Below are positions 45,963-48,980 of a DNA stretch of 64,000 nucleotides, in pieces. A program made the translations under genes and the position numbers. The stretch is from Xanthobacteraceae bacterium (GTDB taxonomy: Bacteria > Pseudomonadota > Alphaproteobacteria > Rhizobiales > Xanthobacteraceae). The notes beneath the pieces are model-generated. The model worked only from the letters and a program-made list of their open reading frames with translations. It did not search any database and was not told where the DNA came from. Position 1 is the stretch's first letter, and every line of letters starts with the position of its first letter. Location: NCBI GenBank assembly GCA_022844205.1, contig JALHMF010000001.1, positions 78,615 through 142,614 on the forward strand, in the 5' to 3' direction.

Positions 45963-46334
45963 ATGGCGACCGCGAAACCCCCAATGAAATCCGCAAAATT
46001 CGACCTGATCGAGAGCGACCGGGTCGAAGGCACGACCGTCTATCGCTCCGACGGCACCAAGATCGGCGCGATCGAGCGGGTGATGATCGACAAATACTCC
46101 GGACAGGCGACCTACGCCGTCATGAGCTTCGGCGGGCTGCTGGGATTTGGCCACGACCACTATCCGATCCCGTGGGCCAAGCTCGACTACAATCCCGAAC
46201 TCGGCGGCTATGAAGTCAATATCAGCGACTCCGAGCTGAAGAACGCGCCGCATTTCGATCCCGGCAAGGAATATAACTGGGGCGATCCTGCGGCGAACCA
46301 GAAGGTCTACGACTACTATCGCGTCGGGCTCTGA
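45963..46334 (+). CDS. PRC-barrel domain protein
   Basis: A 123-residue soluble protein with one PRC-barrel domain (about 15-85): VEGTTVYRSDGTKIGAIERV and DKYSGQATYAVMSFGGLLGF, then HDHYPIPWAKLDYNPELGGY. In Rhizobiales such small proteins are common, often stress-related, and of unknown function. ACGAGGAGG is a strong ribosome site before the ATG. A terminator hairpin lies at 46446, beyond a palindromic repeat. Confidence 0.85.
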   Translation: MATAKPPMKSAKFDLIESDRVEGTTVYRSDGTKIGAIERVMIDKYSGQATYAVMSFGGLLGFGHDHYPIPWAKLDYNPELGGYEVNISDSELKNAPHFDPGKEYNWGDPAANQKVYDYYRVGL

Positions 46335-46341
46335 AGCAGCG

Positions 46342-46436
46342 TCACCCTGAGGTGCCCGCGCATGGCGCGGGCCTCGAAGGGTGCGCCGCCATCCTTCGAG
46401 GCTCGTTCGCTTCGCTCACTCGCGCCTCAGGATGAC
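46342..46436. repeat. palindromic repeat, CATCCTTCGAG / CTCAGGATGA family, copy 3
   Basis: TCACCCTGAGGTGC ... CCTCGAAGGGTG is followed by inverted ATCCTTCGAGGCTCG ... GCCTCAGGATGAC. It shares the ends of the copies at 32078 and 34075. It begins eight bases after the PRC-barrel stop and opens the 843-base gene-free stretch 46335-47177, which is filled with palindromes. Confidence 0.85.
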
Positions 46437-46445
46437 GGAAAAAAT

Positions 46446-46470
46446 CGCCTCGCGAAAGCGGGGCGTTTTT
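46446..46470 (+). terminator. terminator hairpin with GAAA tetraloop (copy A)
   Basis: CGCCTCGC-GAAA-GCGGGGCG followed by TTTTT: an eight-base stem with one G-T wobble and a GNRA tetraloop. It is the first good terminator after the PRC-barrel gene. Confidence 0.75.
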
Positions 46471-46479
46471 CTGTTTGTC

Positions 46480-46502
46480 ATCGCCGGGCTTGGCCCGGCG
46501 AT
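46480..46502. repeat. small perfect inverted repeat
   Basis: ATCGCCGGGC and GCCCGGCGAT pair over ten bases with a 3-base centre. It is one of several independent palindromes in the gene-free tract. Confidence 0.7.
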
Positions 46503-46540
46503 CCCGCTTAGGGCGGCACGGCCTTGCCCAACGAATCGGG

Positions 46541-46607
46541 ATCACCGGGTCTCACAGCGCCGAGCCGCTTCCCGCGGGTTCGCGGGAGGCTGCGGCCCGG
46601 TGATGAC
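46541..46607. repeat. ATCACCGGGT / CCCGGTGAT palindrome, copy 1
   Basis: ATCACCGGGTCTCACAGCGC, then CGAGCCGC, a GC-rich CCGCGGGTTCGCGGG centre and GCTGCGGCCCGGTGATGAC. It is repeated at 47022-47092 with the same first 30 bases and same end but a different centre. The two copies bracket the structured unit at 46796. Confidence 0.85.
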
Positions 46608-46625
46608 AGTTAGTGTGAATGAAAG

Positions 46626-46650
46626 CGCCTCGCGAAAGCGGGGCGTTTTC
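46626..46650 (+). repeat. duplicate of the GAAA-tetraloop terminator (copy B)
   Basis: The stem-loop CGCCTCGC-GAAA-GCGGGGCG and following TTTT repeat the element at 46446 exactly, with unrelated flanks. No gene ends just upstream of this copy, so it is a dispersed or duplicated element rather than the end of a known transcript. Confidence 0.75.
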
Positions 46651-46795
46651 CGTGCTCGCCATTCACGCATCTCTCCCCAATGGGGAAAGGGAGATTGTAC
46701 GCCGCGATTCAAATTTCAAACAGCCAACGCTCCGCTGCGCGGATTTGCGTTTCGGCGCCGCGCCGCCGTCCCATTTTCCAGTTCCTAAATCGAAA

Positions 46796-46953
46796 TGGAG
46801 CGCCGGGAGGCGCCGGGGTGTTTGCGAGACACCCCTGGCGGAGCTTGCGAGGCTCCACCGGGAACGCTTGCGAGGCGATCCCGCTCTCTTGCGAGAGCGG
46901 CGCCTCCCGGCGATCCACCCCGGCGGCGTGCTAGCGGCACCGCCGGGGGTTTT
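46796..46953 (+). other. 158-base nested multi-hairpin unit with four TTGCGAG motifs (possible structured RNA)
   Basis: A perfect 14-base outer helix (46801-46814 with 46899-46912), extended by TGGA/TCCA across one mismatch, encloses four consecutive hairpins with at most one unpaired base between them. These are 46815-46835 (7-bp stem), 46837-46859 (5-bp stem plus two outer pairs), 46860-46882 (8 positions, one mismatch) and 46883-46898 (6 bp). The first three have exactly TTGCGAG as the 7-base loop, and the fourth contains CTTGCGAG across loop and stem. A terminator-like hairpin follows without a gap. Short frames cross it on both strands, but they only translate the palindromes. A structured RNA, a composite palindromic repeat or a protein-binding array are all possible. 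Confidence 0.6.
46918..46953 (+). terminator. terminator-like hairpin abutting the nested unit
   Basis: CCCCGGCG and CGCCGGGG pair over eight bases; above a 2-base bulge GTGC and GCAC pair around TAGCG. GTTTT follows. It begins at the base after the outer helix of the preceding unit ends. A palindrome GGAATATATTCC (46961-46972) and an AGCGACCA/TGGTCGCT pair (46977-47007) come next. Confidence 0.65.
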
Positions 46954-47021
46954 GCGGTCTGGAATATATTCCTATCAGCGACCAAGTCAAGACCCGTGCT
47001 GGTCGCTCATCTCATTTGTTC

Positions 47022-47092
47022 ATCACCGGGTCTCACAGCGCCGAGCCGCTCGCGCTTCGCGCGCTCGCGGGACGCTGCGGCCCGGTGATGAC
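47022..47092. repeat. ATCACCGGGT / CCCGGTGAT palindrome, copy 2
   Basis: This copy has the same ends as 46541-46607, with centre CGCTCGCGCTTCGCGCGCTCG. The remaining bases to lepA (47093-47177) show nothing recognisable. Confidence 0.85.
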
Positions 47093-47177
47093 GGGAGGGG
47101 ATGGTCAAAGCGAAGGCGAAAGCAGAAGAGGCTGCGATATGCCTGGAATGCCTTTGTTTGATAAGAAGCCCTAAAAC

Positions 47178-48980
47178 TCAGCCATCCACCTTCAACGCCG
47201 CAATAAACGCTTCCTGCGGAATATCGACTTTTCCATACTGCCGCATCCGCTTCTTGCCTTCCTTCTGCTTGTCGAGAAGCTTGCGTTTGCGGGTGGCGTC
47301 GCCGCCATAACACTTGGCGGTAACGTCCTTGCGCAGCGCGCGCACGGTTTCGCGGGCGATAATTTTTCCGCCGATGGCGGCCTGGATCGGCACCTGGAAC
47401 ATGTGCGGCGGGATCAGTTCCTTCAGCTTCTCGCACATGGCGCGGCCGCGCATCTCGGCGCGCGTGCGGTGAACGAGCATGGCGAGCGCGTCCACGGGCT
47501 CCCCGTTGACCAAAATAGTCAGCCGCACGAGATCGGCGGGGTGACGCTCCGTGATGTGATAGTCGAACGAGGCGTAGCCGCGCGAAACCGATTTCAGCCG
47601 GTCATAGAAATCGAACACGACTTCGTTGAGCGGCAGATCGTAGGTGACCATTGCGCGGGCACCCACATAGGTCAGCTCAACCTGCGCGCCACGCCGGTCC
47701 TGGCATAATTTCAGAACGCTGCCGAGATATTCGTCCGGCGTGATGATGACGGCGCGAATCCACGGCTCGCGGATTTCCTTGATGCGCGTGACCTCCGGCA
47801 TATCGACCGGATTGTGAATCTCGATGGTGGTGTTGTCGGTGAGATCGATCTCATAGATGACCGAAGGAGCCGTCGCGATCAGCTCCAGATTGAACTCGCG
47901 CGCGAGCCGTTCCTCGACGATCTCCAGATGCAGGAGACCGAGAAACCCGCAGCGGAAACCGAAGCCGAGCGCCGCCGACGTTTCCATCTCGTAAGTAAAG
48001 CTCGCATCGTTCAGGCGGAGTTTCGAGACGGCGCCGCGCAATTGCTCGAACTGGGCGGCGTCCACGGGAAACAGACCGCAGAACACGACCGGCTGCGACG
48101 GGCGGAAACCGGGCAACGGCGCGTCCACGGGCTTGCGGTCGTCGGTGATGGTATCGCCCACGCGCGTATCGGCGACTTCTTTGATGGAGGCGGTAAAAAA
48201 TCCGATCTCGCCGGGGCCGAGCGCTTCGACCGCGACCTTCTTCGGCGTAATGATGCCGACCTGCTCGATGTCGTAGGCGGCCTTGGTGCCCATCATGCGG
48301 ATGCGCTGGCCTTTTTTCAGGGTGCCGTCGACGACGCGCACCAGCACCACGACGCCGAGATAGACGTCGTACCAGCTGTCGACGAGCAAAGCCTTCAGCG
48401 TCGCGTTTTCGTCGCCTTTCGGCGCGGGCAGGCGCGTGACGATCGCCTCCAGCACTTCCGGAATGTTCAGACCGGTCTTCGCGGAGATTTCAATCGCGTT
48501 GGAGGCGTCAATGCCGATCACTTCCTCGATCTGCGCTTTGACTTTCTCAGGCTCGGCCGCGGGCAAATCGATCTTGTTCAGGATGGGAACGATCTCGTGA
48601 TTGTTGTTGATGGCCTGATAGACGTTGGCGAGCGTCTGGGCCTCCACACCTTGCGATGCGTCCACCACGAGCAGCGAGCCTTCGCAGGCCGCGAGCGAGC
48701 GGTTCACCTCGTAGGCGAAGTCCACATGGCCCGGCGTGTCGATCAAATTCAGTACATAATCCTTGCCGTCGCGGGCCTTGTAATAGAGCCGCACGGTCTG
48801 CGCCTTGATCGTGATGCCGCGCTCGCGCTCGATGTCCATGGAGTCGAGCACCTGCTCCTTCATCTCGCGCAGCTCCAACCCGCCGGTGAGCTGGATCAGC
48901 CGGTCGGCGAGCGTGGACTTGCCGTGGTCGATATGCGCGATGATCGCGAAATTGCGGATCTGCGAAGTGGGCGTGGACAT
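47178..48980 (-). CDS. lepA: translation elongation factor 4 (LepA)
   Basis: A 600-residue GTPase that back-translocates or stabilises stalled ribosomes. G1 is AHIDHGKST (about 15-23), the switch region has [14 protein letters not shown]3 is [12 protein letters not shown] and G4 is NKIDLPAA. The C-terminal LepA domain carries the basic [20 protein letters not shown] (about 560-580), its hallmark. I start at ATG 48980 ([10 protein letters not shown]), nine codons inside a longer possible frame, as usual for the family. Confidence 0.95.

Follow-up and report, generated by a model that had tools for sequence, protein, structure and literature searches.

What is the nested palindromic unit at 46796–46953 of a 64,000-nt stretch of a Xanthobacteraceae genome (the window, here the whole stretch that was analysed), and is it an RNA or a mobile palindrome of the DNA? 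A preliminary description made from the letters had reported such a unit with repeated TTGCGAG hairpins, and the sequence agrees with it: the arms at 46796–46815 and 46898–46917 are 95% complementary over 20 nt, and TTGCGAG occurs in four hairpins between them, at 46822, 46845, 46868 and 46889 in plus-strand coordinates. The special point about this heptamer is its clustering in four adjacent loops and not its abundance, the whole window containing 13 matches against 16.7 expected, which is no enrichment. Folding of 46780–46980 against shuffled controls, as that description had proposed, gave z-scores of −6.8 (plus strand) and −8.2 (minus strand), and none of 200 shuffles per strand was as stable; a palindrome folds on either strand, and stability is therefore silent on which one matters. 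We argue below that the unit very probably belongs to a structured RNA gene, as predicted from its homologues. It is also likely, taking the parts together, that the unit forms the central domain of a non-coding RNA with its own minus-strand promoter and a 5′ loop that pairs with itself. The predicted transcript would be at least about 220 nt long.

BLAST with the unit found it in 42 of 150 genomes (its own and those of relatives), often several times in each, and a 22-base arm pattern run over named genomes returned 91 stretches, in Afipia, Tardiphaga, Rhodoplanes, Pseudolabrys, Pseudorhodoplanes and related metagenome-assembled genomes. From 220 detections on both strands among the collected loci, made on the outer arms with at most two to three mismatches, we parsed 95 distinct elements, between 120 and 200 nt long; the outer helix is common to all 95 as the search key, and the orientation of ten was set from flank motifs rather than from loops. 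Inside the outer helix, the number of hairpins and the stem sequences differ widely among copies, and many of the inner loops stay TTGCGAG, TTGCGATC, TGGCGAG or close variants, with other loops in some copies. Five copies (L008, L010, L012, L014, L015) are without the usual flank motifs. A GCAGACAAGTTTACGCAGTCTGCGCAAGCTTGACTGC-type hairpin adjoins the outer helix in some copies (L239, L244, L016, L117, L120, L165) but not in their close paralogues, which looks like the gain of entire hairpins as units. A protein-coding reading was set aside, since the spread of lengths and the alignment gaps of 1–2 nt led us to take the copies as non-coding.

The comparative evidence comes from an alignment of the cores of 27 of the 95 elements, and from R1, a covariance model of this alignment with the window left out of training. 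Two-sided changes occur in 34 of the 66 pairs, a number that none of 500 shuffles reached (21.1 ± 2.2), and 88.9% of the aligned cells are paired, against 35–51% when the pairing is slid by one to three columns. The nine lepA-linked rows of the alignment by themselves contain double changes in 23 of the 66 pairs. The outer 17 pairs are without variation, and the outer helix, which hardly varies, therefore gives no covariation evidence. The preliminary description had supposed that structure and loop sequence are both under selection and had looked to compensatory stem changes and to a covariance model for an answer; the compensatory changes were found, in stems that carry constant CUCGCAA-type loops, and the supposition holds. 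Run against 296 genomes of the family, a search of the kind that had also been suggested, R1 recovered the core from at least 75, which represent 18 of 47 genera, and nothing from the remaining 221; the positive count is a lower bound because nine candidates were scored per genome. A search that took in genomes of other families of the order was positive in 24 of 121 genomes, every one of them in the family of the window, which by the named relatives is the Xanthobacteraceae. Thirty viral contigs with the loop pattern yielded no R1 match with an E-value under 0.46.

The unit had been described in plus-strand letters; the feature is read from the minus strand. Among 152 distinct hairpins picked by loop, the isolated non-Watson–Crick pairs, when read on the minus strand, comprise 44 G-U, 4 A-C and 11 others (p = 1.5e-9), whereas selection at the DNA level or on the plus strand would give an even or a reversed ratio of G-U to A-C. 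This asymmetry shows, by comparison of the copies, that selection for RNA structure acts on the minus strand. The best sigma-70 promoter score has a mean of 11.5 on the 5′ flank of the RNA, 6.4 on the opposite flank and 7.1 in shuffles, and a score of at least 12 is reached by 40 of 88 copies on the 5′ side and by none of 88 on the other, such that the promoter is found on a fixed side of the unit. The core of the window itself scores 73.9 bits with R1 on the minus strand (E 1.5e-11) and 45.1 bits on the plus strand. A plus-strand RNA was ruled out by the G-U test, the promoter side and the model scores, and the reading of GCGA as a plus-strand GNRA tetraloop was dropped because the minus strand had been established. 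A sigma-70-type promoter belonging to the gene itself would drive minus-strand transcription (Table 1), and we infer a start of transcription near 46956. In Rhodoplanes-type copies (e.g. L102, L151, L180) the sequence 5′ of the hairpin has TTATCC-19-TATCTT instead of TTGACA/TATAAT; this second, promoter-like class is fixed at 116–118 nt from the core and has a poor sigma-70 score.

Table 1. Parts of the predicted minus-strand RNA gene, in the order promoter, 5′ hairpin, multi-hairpin core, 3′ pseudoknot (positions in the window).
Feature	Position	Strand	Basis or remark
−35 element TTGACT	46985–46990	−	single sigma-70-type promoter within 46300–47200 (0.1 expected)
−10 element TATATT, spacer 16	46963–46968	−	on the same side in homologous copies
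5′ hairpin, 11 bp, 9-nt loop CCGCUAGCA	46918–46948	−	fold; hairpin of differing sequence at the equivalent place in homologues
Self-complementary GCUAGC hexamer of the apical loop; putative site of self-kissing	46930–46935	−	different palindromes in other copies
Outer helix, 5′ arm	46900–46916	−	
Outer helix, 3′ arm	46797–46813	−	
Core, outer helix around four hairpins	46797–46916	−	match to covariance model R1
Loop CUCGCAA (TTGCGAG on the plus strand), core hairpin 1 of the RNA	46889–46895	−	
Loop CUCGCAA, core hairpin 2	46868–46874	−	
Loop CUCGCAA, core hairpin 3	46845–46851	−	
Loop CUCGCAA, core hairpin 4	46822–46828	−	
Pseudoknot hairpin, stem CGGCG/CGCCG, loop GCGCGG (46758–46763)	46753–46768	−	
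CCGCGC, partner of the GCGCGG loop (H-type pseudoknot)	46737–46742	−	

Comparison of the copies shows a predicted RNA with a shared architecture: a hairpin at the 5′ end, then the conserved outer helix with its hairpins, whose stems covary while the CUCGCAA-type loops stay constant, and a pseudoknot on the 3′ side. The feature thus reaches about 40–60 nt past either end of the span first described, and what had been called an adjoining terminator is the 5′ hairpin, for which a terminator scan makes no call and which is conserved, with changing sequence, in homologues. Directly 3′ of the core, the loop of a hairpin would pair with a segment usually 7–11 nt downstream to form an H-type pseudoknot; of the 92 copies covered by a position-constrained search, 76 have it, with 28 distinct loop sequences among them, and 16 gave no match, whereas shuffles match at a rate of 9% and the opposite flank in 13 of 91 cases. 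The option of a structured RNA, one of several that had been considered, is therefore supported by compensated stems, G-U pairs on one strand, a promoter that faces one way and conservation of the pseudoknot. Many copies, L011, L101, L152 and L180 among them, have a recurring tail 3′ of the pseudoknot, either GGCGGAGCGTTGGCT or GATGACGCTTG, after which GGCTGTTTGAAAATTGAATC often comes.

The surroundings of the gene in the window contain further repeats. A pair of near-identical palindromic repeats (TCACCGGGTCTCACAGCGCCGAGCCGCT...GCTGCGGCCCGGTGATGA) lies one on either side of it, at 46541–46607 and 47020–47092, and resembles, in a likeness noted without alignment, Br-REP2 of Bradyrhizobium (PMC5082802). 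A terminator-like hairpin, CGCCTCGCGAAAGCGGGGCGTTTT, occurs twice behind the gene at 45963–46334, at 46442–46469 and 46622–46649, 180 nt apart. A further palindromic intergenic repeat (CCTCGAAGG...CCTTCGAGG...CTCAGGATGACG) occupies 46368–46437 and is of a type that we take to be common in Rhizobiales.

The window's own genome holds one copy of the window type, along with a related RNA at about 15 places (L298–L305) whose outer helix is the same but surrounds a single hairpin, in many cases capped by a loop of the UCGCA type, and whose 5′ domain is different. These relatives have alternative internal 5′ modules and look modular. To follow the 5′ hairpin we used a second model, R2. It was trained on the hairpins of 13 window-type copies, most of them from Rhodoplanes-like genomes, selected for their good form among the 19 that a first descriptor had picked up in the 95 elements (76 were without a hit). 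R2 matches the 5′ hairpin of the related RNAs in the window's genome and in other genomes (E 3e-8 to 0.08), on the expected strand wherever this was checked; in the 64-kb window it has no match at E up to 0.1, the 5′ hairpin there being of another sequence type. Matches occur in 34 of 150 genomes, 31 of them within the family, and one 8.2-Mb genome carries at least 39 such hairpins, 39 being also how many candidates were scored there; G104, which lies outside the family and has four hits, may be a real extension of the range. Shared 5′ hairpins and outer helices show that the predicted window RNA belongs to a superfamily of multi-copy Xanthobacteraceae RNAs.

The apical loop of the 5′ hairpin is palindromic in many of these RNAs, and the palindrome changes. 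The hexamer is GCTAGC in the window copy and TCATGA, TCTAGA, TCCGGA, CGATCG, TCGCGA, CTTAAG, CTCGAG, CTATAG, ACCGGT, GATATC or GGTACC elsewhere, and a single genome can hold several (TCTAGA 16 times, CGATCG 8, TCCGGA 6 and ATCGAT once). MFE folding placed a palindromic loop in 59 of 93 elements (48 of 279 shuffles) and by itself missed many 5′ hairpins, for which reason a descriptor blind to self-complementarity was used instead; with it, the 5′ loop is self-complementary in 46 of 76 window-type copies (140 of 1520 shuffles). Among hits of the R2 model the figure is 23 of 28 as computed, TCATGA being visible in four of the five negatives of the script and CTCGAG in one. For whole-genome R2 hits it is 65 of 80, with 11 hexamers (280 of 3594 shuffles), where the 80 are a subset of the hits listed that includes all 39 from G082 and a few low-scoring hits that are probably false (G075, G101). 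The central dinucleotides of distinct hits are CG (21), TA (15), AT (10) and GC (4). Just 23 of 374 core loops have self-complementary hexamers.

Such a loop, changing yet self-matching, suggests that the RNA pairs with itself. Neighbouring bases of this kind are unable to pair within one molecule, and the switching of the palindrome therefore points to pairing between molecules; because the hexamer remains self-complementary while its sequence switches, we lean towards a step in which the 5′ apical loop would join two like RNA molecules by a symmetric kissing loop. A caveat is that near-perfect DNA palindromes, too, yield self-complementary loop centres, and the structured RNA gene might have as its 5′ loop a DNA operator beside the promoter, the site lying just downstream of it and a dyad operator being expected to give loops of this form. 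We regard this as rather unlikely: in most of the printed copies, as judged by eye and uncounted, one extra nucleotide offsets the hexamer from the dyad of the stem and breaks the continuous DNA palindrome, and the hexamer switches freely where a repressor would want a fixed half-site.

Two further readings would remove the RNA gene itself. The preliminary description had offered a palindromic mobile element, a MITE or composite REP acting at the level of DNA with the arms as terminal inverted repeats and the hairpins as DNA, and the nearly invariant arm sequence and the dispersal of related RNAs (about 15 in the window's genome, 39 or more 5′ hairpins in a single genome) are what such an element might leave. 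Against this, the 5′ hairpin, the promoter and the pseudoknot are conserved beyond both arms, where a MITE would have ended; the G-U asymmetry requires single-stranded RNA of one strand; copies keep one strand in synteny with lepA; and no plasmid or phage match was found for the element. The reading is quite improbable for that reason, and for the window copy it is unsupported because conservation passes both arms and because of the lepA synteny, while the part of it that concerns past duplication stands, the related RNAs being dispersed in many copies. A tRNA-adjacent or phage- or plasmid-borne element was likewise rejected, tRNA genes being found in just 2 of 60 scanned loci. The same lepA linkage could instead point to a cis-acting element in the 5′ or 3′ UTR of adjacent genes (a leader, attenuator or 3′ stabiliser): at the loci where a lepA match and a parsed element occur together, a set that includes Afipia, Tardiphaga, Pseudolabrys and the window and whose members are not all independent, 12 of 12 elements lie on the strand of lepA, 214–4200 nt downstream of it. 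Such placement on lepA's strand is shown in several genera for the predicted RNA, but a promoter stands between lepA and the element, dispersed copies occur away from lepA, and the gene neighbours vary, with orientations near random (24/22/18/15 of the 79 elements for which a crude ORF caller gave a neighbour on each side). We consider a UTR element very improbable, slightly more so than a mobile one.

Returning to the minus-strand RNA gene, the repeated CUCGCAA loops, which presumably fit the U-turn pattern YUNR, might act as a multivalent display through which each dimer would bind the same partner, a protein or an RNA, at several points, making the RNA a scaffold or sponge; we put this forward only tentatively, the one ground for it being the constancy of the loop. 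The target array for a loop-binding protein that the preliminary description had offered may likewise be a role of these RNA loops. It is similarly speculative, and perhaps somewhat doubtful, that each paralogue of these dispersed RNAs recognises its own kind, such that at least a dozen mutually orthogonal 5′ palindromes would sort the RNAs into separate homodimers, each offering several identical CUCGCAA loops around the conserved 17-bp helix to a common partner. If true, these RNAs would make up a scaffold system that is multivalent and sorts itself. The loops in any case form an unusually clear natural record of palindromes changing sequence, and provide natural paralogues for testing RNA–RNA self-recognition; they also caution that GC-rich 'palindromic repeats' of these genomes can belong to RNA genes.

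A search of the window region with 4227 Rfam models (E up to 1) gave a single sub-threshold match, to SorX and elsewhere in the region, and nothing but sub-threshold matches came from the homologues and the related RNAs (E up to 0.5). Open-access literature on the arm sequence and on repeats and RNAs of Xanthobacteraceae yielded just B. japonicum sRNAs, REPs and unrelated papers, and a term search of the accessible text of PMC3927594, PMC8632094 and PMC3091675 returned nothing on the RNA family. Rhizobiales-1, a Rhizobiales RNA candidate tabulated without an Rfam accession (PMC2864571), is known here from its table entry and not by sequence, and the novelty of the family stands beside that entry. 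The family is apparently missing from Rfam and from the open-access literature searched, which matters for a large RNA family that spans a well-studied bacterial family.

Among known systems, CsrB/RsmZ-type sponge RNAs have many hairpins with one loop motif on different stems. The present RNA also repeats a loop motif on different stems, but the loop is CUCGCAA and not the CsrA-binding motif, and an outer helix and a pseudoknot are present here. REPs of the GTAG/CGTC type are single palindromes of 20–40 bp with a tag tetranucleotide at one end (PMC3733652), and Br-REP1 and Br-REP2 are described as dispersed GC-rich palindromes of Bradyrhizobiaceae (PMC5082802); in contrast, the RNA described here has a multi-helix core of 120–200 nt, a longer transcription unit and covarying structure. 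Closest in argument are OLE, ROOL and GOLLD, which PMC12286853 presents as large and ornate RNAs of bacteria whose molecules join through symmetric kissing loops. There, the change of the OLE L9.3 loop from GGCC to GAUC or AGCU is argued to require intermolecular pairing, and the same palindrome-switching argument that serves OLE and GOLLD applies to the 5′ loop here, where the dimer is inferred from sequence. Unlike those RNAs, the present one, which matches no Rfam model, is dispersed, with many paralogues per genome and several palindromes within one genome.
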